From an uncultured Armatimonadota bacterium (GTDB lineage: Bacteria > Armatimonadota > Fimbriimonadia > Fimbriimonadales > Fimbriimonadaceae), in NCBI GenBank assembly GCA_903833215.1, contig CAILEM010000153.1, forward strand, positions 62,001 through 126,000: 64,000 nt of DNA. Direction: 5' to 3'. Positions 17,033 to 28,704 of the stretch are shown here, in pieces. Under the pieces are notes generated by a model. It made no database searches. It saw only the letters and a program-made list of their open reading frames with translations, and was not told where the DNA came from. Numbering within the stretch: position 1 is the stretch's first letter; each line of letters begins with the position of its first letter. A program made the position numbers and the translations under genes.

Positions 17033-17653
17033 GGAAGAACGAGGGGCTGTTGCCAAATAGAGACCACAAGAGACCAAGAAGGGCTTATGGAGATGACAAT
17101 ATAACAGAGAAAATCCGAAAATGTACTTTTTTTTTCTGATTCCGGCGAGAATTATTCTTCGGATTACCACTAACAAATCACGAGCGGACCAAAAGGAGCC
17201 AAACCATGCTAATGTCCCTGTATTTTCACTGGCTCCTGCCCCACTTGCCACTGAATATTTCTATACTTCCTAAATCTTTCCAATCAACTAAGGGATGAAA
17301 CGTCCTTGCATTCGTTTGTGTTGACCACCAAAATGAAAGCAATGGCCCGGTACAGCCAAACGCCACACCTCTCTGAGTTTCCCTTGCTGTTTCAAATCGT
17401 GTACGTAGGAGACCGTCTCAGACCACCTTCTGGACCAACGACATGGCAATCAGAACTCAGTGGAATACCCATTCAAGGGTTTTGATGCAGCGTATAGGGC
17501 CAAACTGATCCACAGCTTTGTCTTGGTAGCCGTAATGGCTAACTTTGGATACTTCTATTCACGGCCTTTGTGCTTACAGGGTGTGTCCGGCTTTTGGGAT
17601 CAAGGCGATATGCCTCGCAATGCCCCAATCTGTTGTGGCTTTGAGAGCCGGGA
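17033..17653. other. Intergenic region, 621 bp
   Basis: Lies between the regulator start and the CoA-transferase stop. It must contain the promoter of the halogenase operon; an AT-rich stretch with a run of T (17126-17135) lies about 95 nt upstream of the regulator ATG. A short near-palindrome, GGAGACCGTCTC, is at about 17409. Weak plus-strand frames exist (from 17460), but they run into the opposite-strand CoA-transferase and resemble nothing known. No gene is supported. Confidence 0.5.
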
Positions 17654-19155: not shown

Positions 19156-19860
19156 TCACCCAAACGGCTCGGAGCCGTGCCATAGGCCCTGACTTCGCTC
19201 GACCACGTAGCGGGTAAAGGACGTGCGGTCGGCGAATCCTCCTGCTTTCTGGCGTAAGAGGAGGTCCTTGTGGACGCCGGGACCATAGGCAAAATCACGT
19301 ACTGCGGAGAAGTCTCTCCAGAGAGTGACAGTGAAACCATCCGCATCGTCCTGGAGAAAACTCTGCTGGGAGTGTAACCCTGGCATGCCTGTCATGCTCG
19401 TGCGAACTGCGGTAACACCGGTGCCGAACTCGACTGCCCGCTCCATCCATTCGCCCTCCTTGATGAAGCCAGCCGTCGTGATAACGACAAGCGGCCCCGC
19501 CGGCACTGCTTCAGTGGGACAATCGAAGATCAAGCCTGGGTTTGCCCGGTTAAGGAAGTCGACATCGCCGACGTGGCGGACAGGTCGAAGCAGTGCACTC
19601 CATACTTCCCTGGCGTCTCCCAGCCAAGTCAGAATCTGCTCCCGATGCTCGTAGTAGGCCTCAGCAGACTCTTTGTCCTTGTGCAAGGCGATGGCGCAAA
19701 ACTTGTAGGCAGCCCTTGATTTGCCGGTGGTCCCCGCTGCCCGGGTATCTGAAGCGACAGCAGCAAACAGCGGGTTATGGCAGCCGTTTGTAAGCGGTCC
19801 AGCTTCCCGCAGACTATCGAACCGCGCCATGGCGAGAGTAATGTAGGCCGCCTTTTGCAA
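19156..19860 (-). CDS. CrtA-like (spheroidene monooxygenase-like) protein
   Basis: 234 residues. The C-terminal half resembles the CrtA/antibiotic-monooxygenase-like family: a central VWSALLRPVRHVGDVDFLN strand, VVITTAGF, then FTVTLWRDFSAVRDFAYG followed by GVHKDLLLRQKAGGFADRTS and FTRYVVERSQGLWHG. CrtA oxygenates carotenoid ends, but many distant homologues have no known substrate. No carotenoid genes lie nearby, so only the fold is claimed. It runs 150 nt upstream of the CoA-transferase on the same strand. The start is ATG 19860 or 19830. It lies just outside the left repeat of the integrated island. Confidence 0.55.
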   Translation of the reverse strand: MQKAAYITLAMARFDSLREAGPLTNGCHNPLFAAVASDTRAAGTTGKSRAAYKFCAIALHKDKESAEAYYEHREQILTWLGDAREVWSALLRPVRHVGDVDFLNRANPGLIFDCPTEAVPAGPLVVITTAGFIKEGEWMERAVEFGTGVTAVRTSMTGMPGLHSQQSFLQDDADGFTVTLWRDFSAVRDFAYGPGVHKDLLLRQKAGGFADRTSFTRYVVERSQGLWHGSEPFG

Positions 19861-19930
19861 AGTGCACGAAGTGTATCAGAACACCCAAAATTAGGGAGCA
19901 AAATTGGCTCGCTCATCAGACCATACCTTT

Positions 19931-19950
19931 CAAAACGGATCGGTCATGAA
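19931..19950 (+). repeat. att-like direct repeat, copy A (left outer)
   Basis: CAAAACGGATCGGTCATGAA. It differs at one base from the copy that forms the 3' end of the GNAT gene at 27932. It has the same orientation as copies B and C and lies in non-coding DNA. Confidence 0.65.
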
Positions 19951-20057
19951 GTTTGGAACCTCGACTCTTTGGTTCAAAGCTTCCTCACGTTGTCCCGCCT
20001 TGAAACCAGCTCGGCACCTCTTACGAATAGGTACGCAGAGAGGACTAGAATCTCTGA

Positions 20058-20092
20058 GTTATTAACGAATATCCAAGTTATCCGTTAATAAC
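20058..20092. promoter_or_regulatory. Inverted repeat downstream of fic
   Basis: GTTATTAACG (20058-20067) and CGTTAATAAC (20083-20092) form a perfect 10-bp inverted repeat with a 15-bp spacer. The same half-site and the same spacer occur upstream of fic at 21389-21420. This is a probable protein binding site (two half-sites about two and a half helical turns apart), or a module end. Confidence 0.6.
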
Positions 20093-20148
20093 GGCGGCAA
20101 TTGGACGAATCAACTAACGGCAGGTAGCTATTAAGACACGGGTCGATA

Positions 20149-21354
20149 CTACCGCCCCATCGTCTCTTCAACTAATTCCGGTGCGACGTCCGCTGCGTTG
20201 ACTTCAGAATCGTCAAACATTCGGAAATATCTTTCGTGAAGAAACACCCGATTCCGTGCTTTGCCAGATATTTCTTTGAGGATTTCAAGCCGGACCATTT
20301 GAGTCACCATACGGCTCGCTGCCGGAAATTCTTTATTTGCCATCTGTTGAACAAGGGCTATCGTTACGAACGGATGCTGAAACAACTGCTCATAGAGCTG
20401 TAGCGCTTCAGACGTAGTGCGGCCGAAGCTTATCCTGATCTGTTCCCTCTGTTCCTCCCTAAGCGCAACAATGCGTCGTGCTGTGGTTGCCGCTTCATCG
20501 GCAACAGCCGCAACTCCACGCAGGAAGAATTTCAGCCAACCCTCCCAGTCTCCTTTTTCCCGGACTGCCTGAAGCCGGTCGTAATATTCCAGGCGGTTCA
20601 GCTTGAAGTAGTGAGACAGATAAAGAAGAGGCCGAGCAAGAACTCTTTGTTCACAGAGAAAAAACGTGATCAAGAGGCGGCCAACTCGGCCGTTTCCGTC
20701 CAAAAATGGGTGAATCGTCTCAAATTGGGCATGCGCCAAACCAGCTTTGATCATGATTGGTGCCGGCCGATCATCATGGAGATACTGCTCCCACCCTGCC
20801 AACGCGTCCTTCATATCGGCAGGCGCGGGAGGTACAAATCGAGCCGTGGTCAGACTGCAGCCCTGGGGTCCAATCCAGTTTTGACTGCGTCGGAACTCAC
20901 CAGGATCCCTTTCTTGTCCTCTTGTCCCCTCCATGAGTCGGGCGTGGATCTCACACACCAACCTCAAAGACAAAGGCAGTGATTTGAGACGCTCGATTCC
21001 ATAGTTAAGTGCTTCGACGTAGTTCACGACCTCAGCAACGTCGGATGGCCTGCGAGGGTCAAGTACCTTCGCCTCAAGTTCCAAGACGTCAGCAAGCGAG
21101 GCTTGAGTTCCTTCGATCTGTGAACTAAGGACAGCCTCTTTGCGGACGTACATCATCACAAAAAGGTCTGGATTTGGAAGTGCTTCTGTTGAACCGTCAA
21201 GCCGTCCGAGAGCACGGTCCGCCCTCGAAAGTAGATCCAGCAACTCATCGTCAAAGGTAACGGGAGGAATCGGAGGCAGTGAGTTCGGCACAAAGGCGCT
21301 ATAGCCAGTGGGCTGCCGGATATACACTCCCGCTCGGTTCGAAGTCTGTCGCAT
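20149..21354 (-). CDS. Fic family protein (class II, self-inhibited AMP-transferase) with C-terminal winged helix
   Basis: 401 residues. The Fic core contains the active-site motif HPFLDGNGRVGR (215-226), which binds ATP and transfers AMP (or another phosphate-containing group) to a target hydroxyl. The N-terminal inhibitory helix motif SSQIEG (77-82; [ST]xxxE[GN]) marks a class II, self-inhibited enzyme. The C-terminal 90 residues (EALQLYEQLFQHPFVTIALV...SRMVTQMVRLEILKEISGKARN) look like a winged helix that could bind DNA. A matching pair of inverted repeats flanks the gene. It is not paired with a FicA-type antitoxin. It lies on the integrated island; the target is unknown. Confidence 0.93.
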   Translation of the reverse strand: MRQTSNRAGVYIRQPTGYSAFVPNSLPPIPPVTFDDELLDLLSRADRALGRLDGSTEALPNPDLFVMMYVRKEAVLSSQIEGTQASLADVLELEAKVLDPRRPSDVAEVVNYVEALNYGIERLKSLPLSLRLVCEIHARLMEGTRGQERDPGEFRRSQNWIGPQGCSLTTARFVPPAPADMKDALAGWEQYLHDDRPAPIMIKAGLAHAQFETIHPFLDGNGRVGRLLITFFLCEQRVLARPLLYLSHYFKLNRLEYYDRLQAVREKGDWEGWLKFFLRGVAAVADEAATTARRIVALREEQREQIRISFGRTTSEALQLYEQLFQHPFVTIALVQQMANKEFPAASRMVTQMVRLEILKEISGKARNRVFLHERYFRMFDDSEVNAADVAPELVEETMGR

Positions 21355-21359
21355 CCTGA

Positions 21360-21420
21360 CGTTAATTATGACGACAAGAAATCGTCACTATTAACGGAAA
21401 GGAGTCTTTCGCGTTAATAA
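21360..21420. promoter_or_regulatory. fic promoter/operator region
   Basis: TATTAACG (21389-21396) and CGTTAATA (21412-21419) form an inverted repeat with a 15-bp spacer, 35-66 nt upstream of the fic ATG. A further single half-site, CGTTAAT, lies at 21360-21366 just before the start codon. The identical architecture is found downstream of the gene at 20058. Autoregulation through the C-terminal winged helix is inference. Confidence 0.6.
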
Positions 21421-21450
21421 CTATTACAAATCCGACCAGAACTTTGCTAT

Positions 21451-21470
21451 CAGAACTGATCGGTCATGAA
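21451..21470 (+). repeat. att-like direct repeat, copy B (internal)
   Basis: CAGAACTGATCGGTCATGAA. Together with the preceding CTAT it matches copy C over 24 bp with one mismatch. It marks the junction between the fic module and the integrase-bearing element. Confidence 0.75.
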
Positions 21471-21657
21471 GTCTCAGGCTCAAAATGCCAGGTTCAAGGG
21501 CAAACGCCGGATTCAAACTTCCCCCACGGGCCCCCACAAAAGCCCGTCCGACCCTCCCCAATATCCCCGTTTTTTACCCCGTGCCGACAGCAGGATCGGT
21601 AGGCTCGGTGCAGCAGTCTATGACCGCTAAACTTTGTTCGAGTGGGAAGTCTCGCGA

Positions 21658-22131
21658 CTAAGTGGCCGCGACGGCAGGCATTAAATCGTTTTCCTCTTCG
21701 ATCCGTAGCATGCGGATGTCTTTTACCGACGGGGCAAACCAAGGAAAGGTGGTCCTCAAATCGATAGCTGCCATGACGCAAGTCACGGCGTTGACGGCGG
21801 GACCGCCAAAATACACGCTCCCCTGTTGCCAAGTGAAGCCGTGAACGTCAATAAGCCTTTTTCTGATGTCGCCGTACGCGTTGTTATAAGAAGGCGTCGG
21901 ATACAACGTTTGAAGAATTTGCGTATCGAGATCGAAAGCAATGGCGTACATGGTTCTTTTTCCAATTGAAGGGGGTCGCCGCATCTCGTCCAATTCAGGG
22001 GAGATCCGTACTCCAGATATTAGCCGGTCAAATTGATCCAGTGCTATAGCATCAGCCTCGATTTGGCAACTCTCAGCAATATTGCTGAGTGCCGCAGGCA
22101 CTTGGATTGATTTCGCCTTCGTTACCGCCAT
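21658..22131 (-). CDS. VapD-family endoribonuclease with N-terminal extension
   Basis: 157 residues. From Met61 on, the protein is a full VapD: MYAIAFDLDTQIL, SYNNAYGDIRKRL, HGFTWQQGSVYFGG, VNAVTCVMAAIDL, FPWFAPSVKDIRMLRIEEENDL. This Cas2-like ferredoxin fold is known in some members as an mRNA-cleaving toxin; Asp residues in AFDLD are expected at the active site. The 60 residues before it (MAVTKAKSIQVPAALSNIAE...SPELDEMRRPPSIGKRT) are not part of VapD. They may be a fused or read-through antitoxin-like segment. An alternative start at ATG 21951 would give the normal-length protein. It is carried by the integrative element. Confidence 0.88.
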   Translation of the reverse strand: MAVTKAKSIQVPAALSNIAESCQIEADAIALDQFDRLISGVRISPELDEMRRPPSIGKRTMYAIAFDLDTQILQTLYPTPSYNNAYGDIRKRLIDVHGFTWQQGSVYFGGPAVNAVTCVMAAIDLRTTFPWFAPSVKDIRMLRIEEENDLMPAVAAT

Positions 22132-22857
22132 TGCTCACCTCTCAAATCTTGCCTTGATTATTGGTAAGACGTCGTCTGGAAGGAATACGTTTCGCCGCTA
22201 CCTATTGGAAGCATTGAGGCCTCCGTTGATCTGGTCATGACGATAGGTTCGGCCAGCCAAGCTCGGCAATGGCGATGGAGACCCCACGCGAGCCGAACGG
22301 AGGCCATGGAAGGCCGAAGTGAGAGCGTCGCGAACGATACGAGCGCACCGAGTCCTCAGACTTTAGCCCTTCAGGGCGACCGTGAGCGAAGCGAACACCA
22401 TACCCGTCTCGGTAGGACAGGACGTCCGGCGCGAGAGAGTGAGCGGTGCCATGGATGGCACGGGGGAGGGTCCACCGGAGGTGGAGGGGGCGACTCATCT
22501 ACGGACCTCTCGAACAACGAGCGCGAAGCGCAAACTAAGCCCCCTTAGATACTGCGTGAGCACACGACGTGCGAACTCCTTTTAATAGTGTGCCTGTCGC
22601 CTACCGACTAACTCTCGGATTAGGTCGAGCACCCCAAACGGATGATGAATCCCGCCCGGAGGGTGGGTGAAGATTCCGCGTTTTTGCCTTCCAAAAGGTT
22701 CCCGCTTATGGATGTGGACCGTCGAGCGATAACCGCACTAACGGCATTTATAAAAGCCTTAAATGGGACTCGTGCCGTAAGATCTTGCTTAGGGTGGAGA
22801 CCATGACTCACGGATACTGCCCTGATCGGGAGACGCTCCCTCGGGCATATTTTAGCC
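22132..22857. other. Non-coding tract with GC-rich, strongly foldable segment (about 22240-22560)
   Basis: No convincing gene. A plus-strand frame of 103 codons covers the GC-rich part, but it is low-complexity (Gly, Arg, Ser, Glu). The segment holds nested stems: GTGCCAT/ATGGCAC (22446-22461), CCACC/GGTGG (22472-22484), GGGGGC (22486-22491) pairing with GCCCCC (22539-22544), and GCGC-GAA-GCGC (22521-22531). This may be a structured RNA. A second hairpin, GGGAG-ACG-CTCCC, precedes the gene at 22858. Confidence 0.35.
22743..22758. repeat. TTTATAAA-centred palindromic repeat (copy 1)
   Basis: GGCATTTATAAAAGCC. Identical over 16 bp to the copy at 24286. It lies 100 nt upstream of the gene at 22858. 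Related copies: 23643-23656, 23710, 24206-24219, 25958-25973, 26037. Confidence 0.65.
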
Positions 22858-23247
22858 ATGAAAGAACTCACCATAAAACAAATTCTTAGTAACCCATCGA
22901 TGGTGATGGTTTTCGATGCAGAAAACGAACGTACAGAGTTCGCTTTCTGTTGCCAGGTTTGCGAGAAGCCCATAACTGACCGCGATCTTGGAATGGTCGT
23001 GGCATACAGCCCTACTCAGGGCAGATCACCAATAGTAGAACATCAACCTGGCATCGTTGTCCACAAAGAGAACTGCAACCAAGGTGTCGAACTCGTCTTC
23101 GGACTATGGCAGACAGGGCCGTGGGTATCTCTAGATGGTTTTTGCTTTGAGGCTCTGTCTTACGCCGGAGTAAGTATGGAGATTCAGGGATCTCACCGAA
23201 TTGTCCACGCTCCGGCCTTTGAACTAGACGAAGACGGCCTTTGGTGA
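22858..23247 (+). CDS. Hypothetical protein of the integrative element
   Basis: 129 residues, beginning MKELTIKQILSNPSMVMVFD and ending APAFELDEDGLW. No known family. A CxxC (CCQVCEKPITDRDLG) followed later by His-x4-Cys (HKENCNQG) could form a single zinc site. Cytoplasmic, mildly acidic. No clear Shine-Dalgarno precedes the ATG. A palindromic repeat of the GACAGAA family lies 17 nt after its stop. Function unknown. Confidence 0.5.
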   Translation: MKELTIKQILSNPSMVMVFDAENERTEFAFCCQVCEKPITDRDLGMVVAYSPTQGRSPIVEHQPGIVVHKENCNQGVELVFGLWQTGPWVSLDGFCFEALSYAGVSMEIQGSHRIVHAPAFELDEDGLW

Positions 23248-23263
23248 GTCGCTAAACCATAGC

Positions 23264-23279
23264 GACAGAAAATCCTGTC
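23264..23279. repeat. GACAGAA palindromic repeat, copy 1
   Basis: GACAGAAAATCCTGTC, one base off the consensus arms GACAGAA/TTCTGTC. It begins 17 nt after the stop of the gene ending at 23247. Confidence 0.65.
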
Positions 23280-23400
23280 GGCATTCACGGGTGGTCACCA
23301 AGTACCACCCATGCCAGTTGGATACCGTAGCACCACGCAAAAGGTAGACCTAAATTTCACTATTGGAACTTACTCGTATATTTACCTGAGCATCTTGCCC

Positions 23401-23416
23401 GACAGAAAATTCTGTC
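23401..23416. repeat. GACAGAA palindromic repeat, copy 2
   Basis: GACAGAAAATTCTGTC, consensus copy with AA spacer, in non-coding DNA. Confidence 0.75.
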
Positions 23417-23709
23417 GCGGACATAAGGGTATTGGCAATGCACCCAACGGTGAGTATTCAATCAGGACCTACGACAATCGTATTGATCGTTAGGGCCGGT
23501 ATCAAGACATGTTCCTCCTCGAAGCAGATCCCTTACCCCTCGTCTTTACCGCGACTTACTGTGCGTTAGGACTCGGCAAACTGCTTCGAACGGTAGGCGC
23601 ATTGATGAACCAGCCTCACCAATGGAAGATGAGCCCGAAATTCTTTTATAAATGGCGATCTACTCCGTTCTGTGTCAGAAACCGCAAGACACAGCCGATA
23701 GCTTGCTAA

Positions 23710-23725
23710 GGCCATTATAAAAGCC
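23710..23725. repeat. TTTATAAA-centred palindromic repeat (copy 3)
   Basis: GGCCATTATAAAAGCC, 52 nt before a GACAGAA palindrome. A partial copy (TCTTTTATAAATGGC) lies at about 23643. Confidence 0.55.
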
Positions 23726-23776
23726 TTGAGGGGCAACTCTCGGGTGATCCGACCGGCTGAAAGCGGTGACTAACCC

Positions 23777-23792
23777 GACAGAATTTTCTGTC
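23777..23792. repeat. GACAGAA palindromic repeat, copy 3 (extended)
   Basis: GACAGAATTTTCTGTC with TT spacer. Here the arms extend five more bases on each side (AACCC / GGGTT), giving a 26-bp inverted repeat, the strongest of the set. Confidence 0.75.
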
Positions 23793-24004
23793 GGGTTCTG
23801 CTGGCCTAGTCCCGTCACGGGGTCGTGTGCCGCGTGCTCGTGAGCGCCTGTGCGTCCACGCGTGCGTAAGCCATCTACATATCGCAATTTAATAGCTATT
23901 ATTTATTAAACACTTTACTGAAGGAAGGAGAACCTATAAGGAGAGGTTGGAAGGTCCGGTATAAGGAATGTAGATACACTTTAATCACAATCAATATCTA
24001 TGTC

Positions 24005-24054
24005 GTCTCTTCTTTATTTTTTTCGTTCGCTTCGCTCACTCAAAAAGAAGAGAC
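24005..24054. repeat. 50-nt hairpin in non-coding tract
   Basis: GTCTCTTCTTT (24005-24015) and AAAGAAGAGAC (24044-24054) form a perfect 11-bp stem around a 28-nt loop. The loop contains GCTTCGC, the complement of the very stable GCGAAGC mini-hairpin, which also occurs twice at 22.3-22.5 kb. Confidence 0.6.
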
Positions 24055-24124
24055 TCCTTAATCCGGCCAATTCTCAATATCATTCCCAAGGACGAGAATT
24101 GCAAATCCAAGTGTCTCGATGGGT

Positions 24125-24140
24125 GACAGAAAATTCTGTC
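24125..24140. repeat. GACAGAA palindromic repeat, copy 4
   Basis: GACAGAAAATTCTGTC, consensus copy with AA spacer, in non-coding DNA. Confidence 0.75.
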
Positions 24141-24285
24141 CGGCAAAGCCTGAGCTGCTCTAAAGGTCAACCGTTCCATTGAGCCTCCTCGGCAATGGCC
24201 GTCCATTGCTTTTATAATTGACGGCTCGGCCTCTGGGTGTGTCGTTGCGTCGATGAATAGATGGAGCAGTAGACACAGACTCTCT

Positions 24286-24301
24286 GGCATTTATAAAAGC
24301 C
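24286..24301. repeat. TTTATAAA-centred palindromic repeat (copy 5)
   Basis: GGCATTTATAAAAGCC, identical to the copy at 22743, 1.5 kb away. Confidence 0.65.
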
Positions 24302-24358
24302 AACGTCATGTCAAGGTCCCTTCCCCGGAAAATTGAGGGTTCTCAGAGTTTAACTGCG

Positions 24359-24374
24359 GACAGAATTTTCTGTC
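24359..24374. repeat. GACAGAA palindromic repeat, copy 5
   Basis: GACAGAATTTTCTGTC with TT spacer, only three bases past the stop codon of the minus-strand gene ending at 24378. Confidence 0.75.
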
Positions 24375-24377
24375 GAT

Positions 24378-25232
24378 TCAGATGACTGCGTCAATCGAGC
24401 GCTTGCAATTTGAACACGTGGAAGGGTGGCCGATATTCTTTCGACCACACCGGCATGTCCAGATATGATCTTCTAAAGACCCTTTCTTGGTTGACTGGTT
24501 ATCTGGGACAGGGGGTGACATTTGAACACGCGGAATAACTTCAGATTTGCTTGGCATCGACTTAGGCTGATTCGCCATGATGGCTCGATGGCGAATTGCT
24601 TCAATTCTGGCCGCCCACGTTTCCGTGTCCTGAGTGGAATCCATGGAGAGAACAACTAACGGGTTAGCAGGATGGGAAACGACCAAAGAGAGATAACCCG
24701 CCGTAATCTTGGAGTTCACATCGGTCTTAAGCTTTGTTCCTCCTAGGCCAACGTTTCCAAAGTAGAGCATGTTGCTTGAACCGCTTGTGCTAACGCTTCT
24801 CTTAACGTCGAAATCCTTGGTTACCGACAAGATCTCTGTTGCGTCTAGAACGGTCTTGAAGAAGACCTTTCCGTTTGCAATCCGGACCAAATAGATTGCA
24901 TCGTAGTCGGAGTTCGTCGCTATGATGCACGTCGGGTCTCTGAGTTGAGACGCGTCCGATAATTGGAGTCCTTTGCTTACAAAGAGAGAACTTAGCTCCT
25001 TCTTCCAGCCGCCTGCAAGAAGATCCGCCGTAGCCGATTGAGCTGCAAGAGCCGCTCTTCCTTCCGGCGTTCGTTGTAGCTTTTTGATACTTGCGTATTT
25101 CGTTAGAAAATCTAGCGAATAGAGAAGGCCTACGATGAGGACGACGAGTAAGAGGATGCCACCTACAGTTGATGGATCGCTAATAGCCCATCCGAGAACT
25201 ACAACTACGATTACAGCAATGATGCAACCCAT
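24378..25232 (-). CDS. Membrane protein with C-terminal zinc ribbon
   Basis: 284 residues, unrecognised family. Two N-terminal membrane helices (MGCIIAVIVVVVLGWAI; VGGILLLVVLIVGLLYSL) are followed by a cytoplasmic region of about 190 residues with PH/GRAM-like alternation (LRDPTCIIATNSDYDAIYLV, YLSLVVSHPANPLVVLSMDS). It ends in a four-Cys zinc ribbon (WTCRCG...CSNCK, about 260-277). It lies 27 nt downstream of the small zinc-ribbon gene on the same strand, so the two are probably one operon divergent from the XRE regulator. The pairing suggests a membrane sensor or defence role, but this is not shown. Confidence 0.7.
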   Translation of the reverse strand: MGCIIAVIVVVVLGWAISDPSTVGGILLLVVLIVGLLYSLDFLTKYASIKKLQRTPEGRAALAAQSATADLLAGGWKKELSSLFVSKGLQLSDASQLRDPTCIIATNSDYDAIYLVRIANGKVFFKTVLDATEILSVTKDFDVKRSVSTSGSSNMLYFGNVGLGGTKLKTDVNSKITAGYLSLVVSHPANPLVVLSMDSTQDTETWAARIEAIRHRAIMANQPKSMPSKSEVIPRVQMSPPVPDNQSTKKGSLEDHIWTCRCGRKNIGHPSTCSNCKRSIDAVI

Positions 25233-25259
25233 AAAGAATGATCCGATAGCGTGACGGTG

Positions 25260-25448
25260 TTACCGGTGACTGGCTTGAGCAAAGAGTGAAATGAGCACCA
25301 TTAGGCCAAGGAATGCAAGCACGTACTTTGCTATTAGCATTGGATAATTTGCTTGGTCCATGGGGTGACCACACTTTGGGCAAGTGCTAGCCGATTTTGA
25401 GAGGCTATTTCCGCAGGCCGGACAGTCGATAAGTGCTTTCTGCTTCAT
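25260..25448 (-). CDS. Small zinc-ribbon, single-helix membrane protein
   Basis: 62 residues: an N-terminal zinc ribbon (CPACGNSLSKSASTCPKCG) followed by one membrane helix (KYVLAFLGLMVLISLFA). This is a typical compact zinc-ribbon/TM protein, with Cys pairs for one zinc. It is the first gene of a two-gene unit with the larger zinc-ribbon membrane protein. It is divergent from the XRE regulator across 134 bp. Confidence 0.75.
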   Translation of the reverse strand: MKQKALIDCPACGNSLSKSASTCPKCGHPMDQANYPMLIAKYVLAFLGLMVLISLFAQASHR

Positions 25449-25582
25449 GGTTCTAGGAATTCCAAACTTTCACCGCTAAAATCGAGCGAATTCTCGCCGA
25501 ATCAACCGAACGGGTCAGCTAACTGGCCGATCACCGGAGGATATCATAACTTACATGTCTTCATGCCGCCATGTTCGATTGA

Positions 25583-25849
25583 ATGGGCAAAAGGGTCGTG
25601 GCAAGTCTCAGGACGGAGGAGCATAGAACGTTAATAGCGTTGATTAGAGCCGCCCGAGTGGAGAGCGGTCTCTCACAAAATGAAGTTGGAAGACTTGCAA
25701 ATCTTTCTCAGCCCGTACTCAGCGCTATAGAGGCCGATGACCGGCGGTTGGACGTGGTCGAGTTCTTGGACCTTGCCGAAGCCATCGGTTTCGATGCTTT
25801 TGAGATGCTTCGGACAATCAACGACGCTCGCAAGAGTCAGAAACCCTGA
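25583..25849 (+). CDS. XRE-family helix-turn-helix regulator
   Basis: 88 residues. The Cro/C1-type HTH is clear: LIRAARVESGLSQNEVGRLANLSQPVLSAIEADDRRLDVVEFLDLAEAIG. A single domain with short tails, typical of small element-borne repressors. Divergent from the zinc-ribbon pair; a natural candidate for binding one of the two palindrome families on the element, although no copy lies in the 134-bp divergent gap itself. Confidence 0.9.
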   Translation: MGKRVVASLRTEEHRTLIALIRAARVESGLSQNEVGRLANLSQPVLSAIEADDRRLDVVEFLDLAEAIGFDAFEMLRTINDARKSQKP

Positions 25850-25898
25850 TGCTTGGAAGTGGTCGTCCGACTCCTGGGCGACTCCGGCGGCTGGACTT

Positions 25899-25914
25899 GA
25901 CAGAAAATTCTGTC
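25899..25914. repeat. GACAGAA palindromic repeat, copy 6
   Basis: GACAGAAAATTCTGTC, arms extended by T/A. It lies 50 nt after the XRE gene stop and 1.5 kb from copy 5. TTGACA, a possible -35 element, overlaps it. Confidence 0.75.
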
Positions 25915-26036
25915 AGACCAAAACTCGTGAACATGCTCTAGTCGAAGGCTTTCTCTCGCCTTTTATAATTGCTTCCTAGCGGCTCCAAAGCTGAAACGGG
26001 GTTTCGTGGGTGTGACGGTACGAAGAGTCGGCCCAC

Positions 26037-26051
26037 GGCTTTTATAAAGCC
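26037..26051. repeat. TTTATAAA-centred palindromic repeat (copy 7)
   Basis: GGCTTTTATAAAGCC; the arms GGCTTT and AAAGCC match perfectly. Confidence 0.6.
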
Positions 26052-26205
26052 GGGTTCATGCGGTGGCCTAGCCAAGTCTTCGGAGCATTGTTGCGGACGC
26101 ACCGTCAATTTGCTCGAAACTGCTCAACGATACTTGACAGCTATCGGTCCCCAACAAGCTTCATGTACATCGTAATCCGCTGACCCACGGGCAGAGAAAA
26201 ACAAC

Positions 26206-26451
26206 ATGAATGAACAAACCGTAACGTTTAACGCGTCGGACCTCATTCCACGACCGGTATCGCATTATGCGGAGCTTGGGGATAAAGCTGAATCGATCTT
26301 GAACCGCTCGTGCGCTCAAGATTCAGTCTCTGGAGCTTTCAAGCGCGAAAAGGAGTGGGGAGGCTCCCCGCTCCTCTCGATCTACCGCTACTGTTTGCGT
26401 CAACGCCCCTATCGTCAGCAATTCGGGGGTGTCTATGTCTGCTTCTGCTGA
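26206..26451 (+). CDS. Possible leader or small protein upstream of excisionase
   Basis: 81 codons from ATG 26206 (MNEQTVTFNASDLIPRPVSHYAELGDKAE). The first 35 residues look like protein. The rest, including a run through a strong hairpin (26351-26375), does not. It overlaps the start of the excisionase-like gene. It may be a leader peptide or a truncated gene; no family is recognised. Confidence 0.3.
   Translation: MNEQTVTFNASDLIPRPVSHYAELGDKAESILNRSCAQDSVSGAFKREKEWGGSPLLSIYRYCLRQRPYRQQFGGVYVCFC
26351..26375 (+). promoter_or_regulatory. Strong hairpin upstream of excisionase-like gene
   Basis: AGGAGTGGGG / CCCCGCTCCT forms a 10-bp stem (one G.T pair) with a 5-nt loop, 60 nt before the excisionase start. 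There is no T tract after it. An attenuation or mRNA-stability role is possible. Confidence 0.45.
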
Positions 26452-26731
26452 GACACCTACATTTGAACCGGTGGGTCGTGCCTATGACGCCTTGGCGGTT
26501 AAGCTTCTCTATACGGTCGATGACGTCGCGGCTTTGTTGGCGGTCGGAAGATCGACCGTAGAAAAACTGATCCATGACGGTTACTTGGCAAGCGGGATAG
26601 TTCAGGGAACGGAGCGTTCCCGTCGAATCAGTCGAAGACAAGTTGAAGCCTTCATAGAGCAGTTCGACGGCGCGTTCCCATCTTCCGGCAAGCCAAAGTT
26701 CATCCGCAAGCCACGGAAGCGAATCGGTTAG
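26435..26731 (+). CDS. Excisionase-like helix-turn-helix protein
   Basis: 98 residues. It contains a MerR/excisionase-type HTH of the DNA-binding domain found in Xis-like proteins: KLLYTVDDVAALLAVGRSTVEKLIHDGYL...RSRRISRRQVEAFIEQ. It ends in a basic tail (KPKFIRKPRKRIG). The ATG at 26435 (or GTG 26429) follows GGGGG. The stop overlaps the integrase stop on the other strand by two bases. It probably directs excision of the element with the adjacent integrase. Confidence 0.85.
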   Translation: MSASAETPTFEPVGRAYDALAVKLLYTVDDVAALLAVGRSTVEKLIHDGYLASGIVQGTERSRRISRRQVEAFIEQFDGAFPSSGKPKFIRKPRKRIG

Positions 26732-27900
26732 CCCAACTCCATTGCTGATCGGATGTCGTCGTCGGTCGCCCTGACGTAATACTGCATCGTAGTCTGTAGC
26801 TTGGAGTGCCCCGCAATCTTCATGAGGACGTGAGGCTTAACGCCCCTTCCGTCGTTGGAGTCGTTCGCCAAGAACGTGAGAAAGCTAGACCGGAAATCGT
26901 GATGAGTCGGAATAGGCTTGCCGTCGCTCCCATCGAATCCAGCGGCTAGGACAAAATCCTTTATGAGCACTGAACCGTTTTGCGCACTATACGAGTCTCC
27001 GTTTCGAAGGCAAAGACGCGCATTCTTCCCTGATCTGACGACCGGCAGGGAATCCCGAAAATAGCCAATCAAGTCTTCAGAAATTGGAAGGTCTCTTTTC
27101 CCGGCCAACGACTTGGGGGGAACGACCATCAGCCCCTTCCCGACGACGCTTTGCAGTTGTTGGCGTACCCGAATGACTCGCTTCTCCAGGTCTACGTGCT
27201 TCCATTCAAGACCAAGACATTCCCCAAAGCGTAAGCCAAACCGAATGCCAAGAATGACGGGCCAAAACATCGGCGTTTCTTTGGCCGCGTCAACCAAGCG
27301 ATCCATTTCGTCAGTGGTCAAGATCCTCTTCGCCAGCTCAAGTTCGTCTTCAATGACGACCATGTCTTTGATCTTCGCGGCCCGGCAAGGGTTGACCGGT
27401 ATCAAACCCTGATTCATCGCCCTCGTTAACGAGGACGCAACGGCGGTCTTGACTCTCACCGCTACATGAATTCCATCCGACTTTTTCAGGTCGTTGAAGA
27501 AGATTTGAAGCGCCGGTGCCGTAATGTCGTCAATTCGAACCCCACCAAGTTTCTTGAATACTCTCGTCGTCAGCCAGTGGCGATAGTTGTCAACGCTCGT
27601 GGGAGCAAGTTCGTTAGGCCAAATTTCGGAGAGGCAATGTTCGCTCCACGTCTGGATTGTCCAGCCTCGTTGGTTGGCACCCTCATTCCGGTTGTACTCG
27701 TCAAACGCAGCGTCTCGTGAAACGATGGCGTCCTTTTCGGAAGCTCGGCTACCGTGCTTTCGAAACTGCGTCCCGTCACGGCGGGTGATCGAAACTTCCC
27801 ATTGCCACTTGCCGTGGCGGTCTTGCCAGACGTTCCCGCCCTTCTTATCCCTCGGTGCCCGGTGCGCTTTTGCCATGTTGCGGGGAAGATTACCCCGCAA
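26728..27900 (-). CDS. Tyrosine recombinase (phage-type integrase)
   Basis: 390 residues. An N-terminal AP2-like/arm-binding region (WQDRHGKWQWEVSITRRDGTQ) is followed by a SAM-like core-binding domain (about 80-175) and a catalytic domain with Arg224 (GLRFGECLGL), HDFR (334-337), GHS (His365) and the nucleophile Tyr374 in TTMQYY. All residues needed for strand exchange are present. The gene starts 31 bp from the right att-like repeat, so it most likely catalyses insertion at the 3' end of the GNAT gene. ATG 27900 or 27876 could be the start. Confidence 0.95.
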   Translation of the reverse strand: MRGNLPRNMAKAHRAPRDKKGGNVWQDRHGKWQWEVSITRRDGTQFRKHGSRASEKDAIVSRDAAFDEYNRNEGANQRGWTIQTWSEHCLSEIWPNELAPTSVDNYRHWLTTRVFKKLGGVRIDDITAPALQIFFNDLKKSDGIHVAVRVKTAVASSLTRAMNQGLIPVNPCRAAKIKDMVVIEDELELAKRILTTDEMDRLVDAAKETPMFWPVILGIRFGLRFGECLGLEWKHVDLEKRVIRVRQQLQSVVGKGLMVVPPKSLAGKRDLPISEDLIGYFRDSLPVVRSGKNARLCLRNGDSYSAQNGSVLIKDFVLAAGFDGSDGKPIPTHHDFRSSFLTFLANDSNDGRGVKPHVLMKIAGHSKLQTTMQYYVRATDDDIRSAMELG

Positions 27901-27930
27901 TTAACCCCGTTTCGCTTTGATTTGAACCTA

Positions 27931-28704
27931 TCAAAACTGATCGGTCATGAACATTTGCGGGAGGCCGGGGATGTTGTGGCCCATTAGGTAGAGGTCGACT
28001 TCGGGATTTGTGATGGGGATTTCGAATTGGTCGGCCATGAAGGTGGTGCCGAACCACTCGGTGCCAGGAGGGAGAGGCATCGCGTCAACCGGGGTCTCGA
28101 AGATGTGCTCGCGCAGCACGTTCGGTTCGAAGCAGACGTAGCCGGATTGGAAAGGCGTGCAGATTCGGTAGTGCCACTTCCAATAGCTCCAACGCTTCTC
28201 GTCACGCCGAAGCCGATCGGGATGCGCTTCGCTCCAAGCGTTGTATTTGGCCTCCACTGTGTCGAAGTCGAAGCAATCGGGAAGGTCGTCTTCCATCGAA
28301 GTCGTCAACGGACCACGCACGACACGATCAAGCGGTTCGAATCCGTTGCGCTCGTAAAACCTCAAGTCACGCGCGAAAAGCAGGGCACCTGGCTCTCCTC
28401 TCAGCTCGGATTCCTTGATGACCTTTTGGAGCAACCGAGAAGCATGGCCTTCGCTCATGCGGTCTGCTTTGGTTGCGACGCCAGCAATCCCAAATGCACG
28501 TCCCCAACCAAACTCAAGGGGGCTCGTGGTGAGGATTGAGACCATCTCTCTGCCCTCAAACAACGCCCACTTGCGATTGAGATCGTACATCGGCTCGGTG
28601 AAGAACACATCGTAAGCGCGATTGAAGTCGAGGCCGAAGGCATCGCACATCACATGAAGGAAATCTTCTCCTTCCTCTTCTCGTATCGTGCGAATCTCGG
28701 TCAT
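27931..28704 (-). CDS. GNAT N-acetyltransferase (Eis-like), host of the integration site
   Basis: 257 residues. The N-terminal GNAT domain has the acetyl-CoA loop region VATKADRMSEGHASRLLQKVIKES, and FYERNGFEPLDR. The C-terminal part (WYKWH-type core, then TTFMADQFEIPITNPEVDLYLMGHNI) resembles Eis-type enzymes. The substrate is unknown. Start overlaps the CdaR stop by four bases, which links it to the c-di-AMP operon. The last six codons and part of the stop are supplied by att-like copy C, so the gene end has been rebuilt by the integrated element. Confidence 0.88.
   Translation of the reverse strand: MTEIRTIREEEGEDFLHVMCDAFGLDFNRAYDVFFTEPMYDLNRKWALFEGREMVSILTTSPLEFGWGRAFGIAGVATKADRMSEGHASRLLQKVIKESELRGEPGALLFARDLRFYERNGFEPLDRVVRGPLTTSMEDDLPDCFDFDTVEAKYNAWSEAHPDRLRRDEKRWSYWKWHYRICTPFQSGYVCFEPNVLREHIFETPVDAMPLPPGTEWFGTTFMADQFEIPITNPEVDLYLMGHNIPGLPQMFMTDQF
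27932..27951 (+). repeat. att-like direct repeat, copy C (right end)
   Basis: CAAAACTGATCGGTCATGAA. On the minus strand it encodes the GNAT C-terminus FMTDQF and most of the stop codon. The integrase gene begins 31 bp to its left. Confidence 0.78.

Follow-up and report, generated by a model that had tools for sequence, protein, structure and literature searches.

Tandem island at the 3' end of a GNAT acetyltransferase gene, with an IME-like element next to a minimal module carrying a predicted SoFic-type gene

Tandem accretion of ICEs or IMEs and CIMEs is a known mechanism that has been reviewed for the ICESt1/CIME type (PMC5704250). There, an element at a gene end lies beside an att-flanked module that has neither recombinase nor transfer genes, and insertion proceeds stepwise at an att site that carries the end of the target gene (PMC5704250). 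In the ssrA islands of Dehalococcoides, a 20-bp repeat of a gene 3' end delimits several tandem islands, many of them have no integration module, their cargo is strain-specific and a conserved motif is found upstream of each repeat (PMC3146451). PAISt at the bacA gene of Streptomyces turgidiscabies comprises two modules, one of them with a tyrosine recombinase, and the protein-coding 3' end is present three times (PMC4057263). Integrons combine a single tyrosine recombinase with an adjacent array of modules that have repeated recombination sites. All of these traits recur in the island described here, which lies in a 64,000-nucleotide stretch of DNA (the window) from an uncultured Armatimonadota bacterium. 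There are distinct differences, too. Unlike in the ICESt1/CIME type, insertion is at a GNAT gene, the outer module, 1.5 kb in size, holds just one SoFic-type gene, and its arm points to a different integrase lineage from that of the resident element. Dehalococcoides uses a serine recombinase and a tmRNA target (PMC3146451), whereas here a tyrosine recombinase is found at a protein-coding target. PAISt is 674 kb in size, resides in an unrelated host and has an 8-bp palindromic core; its modular excision has been demonstrated (PMC4057263). Integrons have attC hairpins instead of the arm-plus-core sites seen here, and the window integrase does not reach IntI level. The accretion mechanism is already known, with the Dehalococcoides ssrA islands, PAISt at bacA and the ICE/IME-CIME systems as close precedents. 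New here are the target, the architecture of the site, a change of target among close homologues, and the minimal defense module.

The island contains three direct repeats, termed A, B and C. The earlier note had described a 20-mer that is exact at 27932-27951 and occurs with one mismatch each at 19931-19950 and 21451-21470, and we can confirm all three. By chance, 0.01 copies with up to three mismatches would be expected in the 64-kb window, and the whole 6.2 Mb genome holds no copies beyond these three at that threshold. The proposed length of 20 bp describes a real core, but the full site is longer: one further base is common to all copies, so that the core comprises 21 bp (on the GNAT strand TTCATGACCGATC[A/C]GTT[T/C]TGA), and left arms of around 60 bp adjoin A and B. 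All copies lie on the minus strand. In GNAT sense, copy A at the outer island end (19930..19950) reads TTCATGACCGATCCGTTTTGA and copy B (21450..21470) reads TTCATGACCGATCAGTTCTGA, each 21 bp, while copy C (27931..27951) makes up the final six codons and the stop of the target gene. This gene (27931..28704, minus strand) encodes an intact GNAT acetyltransferase of 257 aa (Pfam Acetyltransf_9), and a homologue is present in 61 of 61 genomes searched. Any of the three copies would terminate the GNAT frame as FMTD(Q/P)F-stop. Thus, direct repeats are found at both element ends, and one of them, C, restores the end of the gene.

It is hardly credible that the repeats arose without a recombinase, through tandem duplication of the GNAT end by slippage or by homologous recombination. 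A duplication of this kind exists in the genome G009 (L075 8560-10970), where about 114 bp from the 3' end of GNAT are duplicated almost perfectly on the two sides of a 2.3-kb insert in which no integrase homologue was detected; it is an independent event at the GNAT end. However, the copies in the window share only 21 bp with GNAT, and the arms are conserved across species. Since A and B are flanked by arms and not by GNAT sequence, we have rejected a slippage origin.

Comparison with related genomes identifies a recurrent integration site in a poorly studied bacterial genus. Seven genomes that belong to other species of the genus (G017, G016, G018, G007, G014, G013 and G001) carry a single core copy beside GNAT and no island genes. 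These seven congeners agree with the prediction of the earlier note that island-free relatives should have one intact copy. The contrary outcome that it had named, integrase-free genomes with the same repeats and intervening genes, is not seen in them. In a further genome, G004, repeats occur in the absence of a detected integrase, yet they enclose different genes. Besides the window's own, integrases directly adjoin the GNAT end in G019 (60% identical), G012 (40%) and G020 (39%). G019 has four core copies (contig positions 17450, 12061, 10189 and 5528), G012 has two further copies on a separate, unlinked contig of 6.6 kb, and the array of G004 is split across three contigs, over which its copies are spread. 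Two of the G004 contigs (L073 3007, L074 1) break at the same point within AraC genes, and C31 and C47 begin with a common stretch of 141 bp; this array therefore probably comprises more modules than were counted. The cargo varies between genomes. Modules of G004 and G019 encode AraC regulators and proteins of about 610 aa with RHS-like cores and variable C-termini, and those of G004 also hold oxidoreductase-like proteins; both names were given by eye from the sequences, and Pfam gave no RHS match. The G012 modules encode a NUDIX protein and an Mrr-type restriction domain. Taken with the att arms shared across species, the empty sites and the independent arrays of congeners bear out the view of a tandem site-specific island at a protein-coding 3' end.

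Two further observations concern these relatives. After its integrase, the G012 element (L065 11497-14052) encodes a protein resembling the Rep of G019, an Xre-like regulator and an IrrE/ImmA-type peptidase. The genome of the window (G000) encodes two relatives of the AraC-linked RHS-like protein found in the G004 array, at G000:C155:1732-3147 and G000:C153:158435-159853, with identities of 86% and 73%; both lie away from the three core copies.

The segment B-C is 6.5 kb long. Next to copy C it encodes a tyrosine integrase (26728..27876, minus strand; Pfam Phage_integrase, PHROG 1) of 382 aa from an ATG, or 390 aa from a TTG at 27900. The earlier statement that the integrase starts 31 bp from copy C is true only for the TTG. 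The ATG at 27876, 55 bp away, is the likelier start because all five homologues align from its methionine. The catalytic residues R224, H334, R337, H365 and Y375 (390-aa numbering) are invariant in six homologues. Further genes encode an excisionase-like HTH_17 protein of 100 aa (26429..26731, plus strand; TIGR01764 44.4 bits, over the cut-off), an HTH_3 (Xre-type) regulator of 88 aa (25583..25849, plus strand; Pfam) and a small protein of 62 aa with paired CxxC motifs (25260..25448, minus strand; PHROG matches of unknown function). A VapD-like protein of 157 aa, from the Cas2-like fold family (21658..22131, minus strand), is matched by PADLOC as Cas2 and by NCBIfam VapD with 42.5 bits, which falls short of the cut-off of 100. 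Two orphan reading frames have no family match in Pfam, NCBIfam and PHROG scans, one of 284 aa with a hydrophobic N-terminus and C-terminal CxxC motifs (24378..25232, minus strand) and one of 129 aa (22858..23247, plus strand). In trinucleotide composition B-C differs from its flanks, with 0 of 300 flank segments equally far, while A-B departs from them marginally (4.7%). Among the scanned B-C proteins there was no family match to relaxase, Rep or conjugation genes (Pfam, NCBIfam, PHROG), and tblastn of the rolling-circle Reps of relatives against the island gave no match; such Rep families are present in the elements of G019 and G032. Because neither a relaxase nor a rolling-circle Rep was found, we call B-C only IME-like.

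These data bear on the question of whether the island is a fossil, with real parts of which none is still mobile. There is no transfer or replication gene among the B-C matches, and the cores A and B are each one base off C. However, the frames of the integrase and the excisionase-like protein are intact and the catalytic residues of the integrase are conserved. We consider a fossil island possible, though unlikely. A search of genome contigs with the integrase returned only two distant matches. A second, distant tyrosine recombinase, 26% identical, is encoded on a short contig of the window's own genome (G000:C113:1694-2800). An Rfam search of the island gave nothing. A structured RNA between TATA-like motifs was considered and dropped, as folding was not clearly better than that of shuffled sequences (z +0.1 to -1.7).

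The attachment sites consist of the core plus arm boxes. Left arms of up to about 60 bp are common to the distal copies and are element-derived; copy C has none. Their consensus boxes, TTGAAYC, lie near -46 and -27. The left arm of B (21471..21530, minus strand), termed type I, has TTGAATC at -46 and TTGAACC at -27, and shares 78-83% identity with four arms in G019 and G004, compared with an average of 25% for random 60-mers. The left arm of A (19951..20010, minus strand), termed type II, has a TTGAACC box at -27 and resembles the arms of G012: in the 25 bp adjoining the core 19-20 positions match G012 and 11 match B. On the integrase side of C an inverted box, TAGGTTCAAA, is found, and the inner right arm beside C, TAGGTTCAAATCAAAGC (27914..27930, minus strand), is conserved in G028 and G032 as well, where it lies at tRNA-Sec. 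These boxes may be arm-type integrase sites. With two or fewer mismatches, the arm-plus-core site occurs in only 4 of 85 genomes of the family, precisely those with arrays: the window's own genome (two), G019 (two), G004 (three) and G012 (one, with a second copy at three mismatches). Matches in other genomes have three mismatches and resemble noise or GNAT ends.

The outer segment A-B was described in the earlier note as a fic module of 1.5 kb without its own recombinase, and this holds. Its sole gene (20149..21354, minus strand) encodes a Fic protein of 401 aa that matches Pfam Fic_N and Fic, and an att-type site lies on each side, with neither recombinase nor transfer genes in between, as in a CIME. 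The PADLOC SoFic profile gives 418 bits and NCBIfam SoFic 181 bits, the latter under its own cut-off of 550; the translation has the active-site motif HPFLDGNGR. By profile and motif, this is a predicted SoFic-type defense gene. Sofic reportedly protects bacteria from phage through abortive infection that is based on AMPylation (PMC12249575), and here we find a candidate defense gene that would travel as a minimal module of 1.5 kb. No remnants of integrase or Xis were found in the integrase-less modules, that of Fic included. The Fic module has a left arm, but the integrase remnant of a decayed CIME is absent, and to regard it as a decayed element is an interpretation. Since the arm of A is like that of G012 and not like that of B, the module probably came with an element of another integrase lineage, and this source element has probably lost its integrase since. 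The difference in lineage makes mobilization of the module in cis by the resident element, which had been suggested earlier, less straightforward. Relatives of the Fic protein, 74-75% identical, are encoded at other locations in G012 and G004, with no core copies within about 1.5 kb.

Beyond A lies a CrtA-like gene (19156..19860, minus strand) that adjoins a core copy in G019. In the island-free genome G017 this gene and GNAT share a strand and are separated by 11 kb, and the interval holds no further core copies and no recognizable integrase. Because of this linkage, A probably faces the chromosomal side; as synteny was searched for past the CrtA-like gene and none was found, that assignment relies on this one gene. 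Past this gene G019 has its fourth core copy, and older insertions may therefore have reached further out than A. The flank and the arms also speak to the idea that the whole of A-C arrived as a single composite element with copy B already inside it. Recombination of A with C would take out both modules jointly, and CIME-ICE tandems have been reported to transfer together (PMC5704250). However, the arms of A and B are of different types, the G019 copy next to the CrtA-like gene bears a type I arm in the absence of any Fic gene, and the modules vary separately. Joint entry seems quite unlikely to us.

We instead consider it very probable that B-C is an IME-like element integrated beside an older, CIME-like module A-B, by tandem accretion at the GNAT end. 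First, an element with a G012-type arm would have entered the GNAT end, leaving copy A and the Fic module, which lost its own recombinase or never had one. B-C would then have inserted between GNAT and this module, through site-specific recombination by a tyrosine recombinase at the final 21 bp of GNAT, duplicating the core and restoring the C-terminus of the protein. We infer this order of the two insertions. Excision by recombination of B with C, A with C or A with B, and transfer, would be expected from the arrangement of the sites.

An integron-like cassette system has to be weighed against stepwise accretion. The resident integrase would then move small integrase-less modules at the GNAT end, and the array would be a working store and not a decayed pile. 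One integrase lies beside the target and several integrase-less modules with the same site occur in four species, the modules have no integrase remnants, and related AraC/RHS-like modules occupy different array positions in G004 and G019. However, the integrase is far from IntI (TIGR02249 26.1 bits, cut-off 265), the sites are arm-plus-core and not attC-like, the lineage of the A arm differs from that of the resident element and fits separate arrivals, and there is no evidence of shuffling within one species. We regard such a system as a long shot. A broader form, in which one integrase family builds GNAT-anchored arrays of integrase-less defense and toxin-like modules in an integron-like accretion and the same subfamily switched between tRNA-Sec and the protein-coding target, appears improbable.

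After the GNAT-associated integrases, the next closest are those of G028 and G032, about 48% identical, which are found at the 3' end of tRNA-Sec. In both genomes a closely similar inverted box is kept directly beyond the tRNA. The integrase tree supports three pairs, the window with G019 (98/97), G012 with G020 (100/100) and G028 with G032 (92/91), and does not support the branching order among them. Since two close homologues sit at tRNA-Sec, the target has changed within the family between tRNA-Sec and GNAT; the change could have gone either way. Together, the four integrases at GNAT and the two at tRNA-Sec, all six closely related, make up a small natural set in which a change between a tRNA and a protein-coding target can be studied. 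At the two tRNA-Sec integrase loci (L068 10356-10449 and L071 3359-3452) no second copy of the tRNA-Sec end was found in the stretches examined, and the G032 element encodes a Rep_trans protein.

Finally, B-C contains a 16-bp palindrome, GACAGAAWWTTCTGTC, in six copies between 23264 and 25914 (starts 23264, 23401, 23777, 24125, 24359 and 25899), one of them with a mismatch. Between some of these, CTTTTATAAWTG motifs face each other. Operator and origin are among the candidate functions of the palindromes. The exact palindrome occurs in 3 of 41 genomes: in the window's own genome all copies are in the island, in G019 they lie in its island, and in G004 the palindrome is found about 56 bp from a core copy. 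In G012, a near-match pair surrounds a CTTTTATAATTG motif directly after the Rep-like gene.
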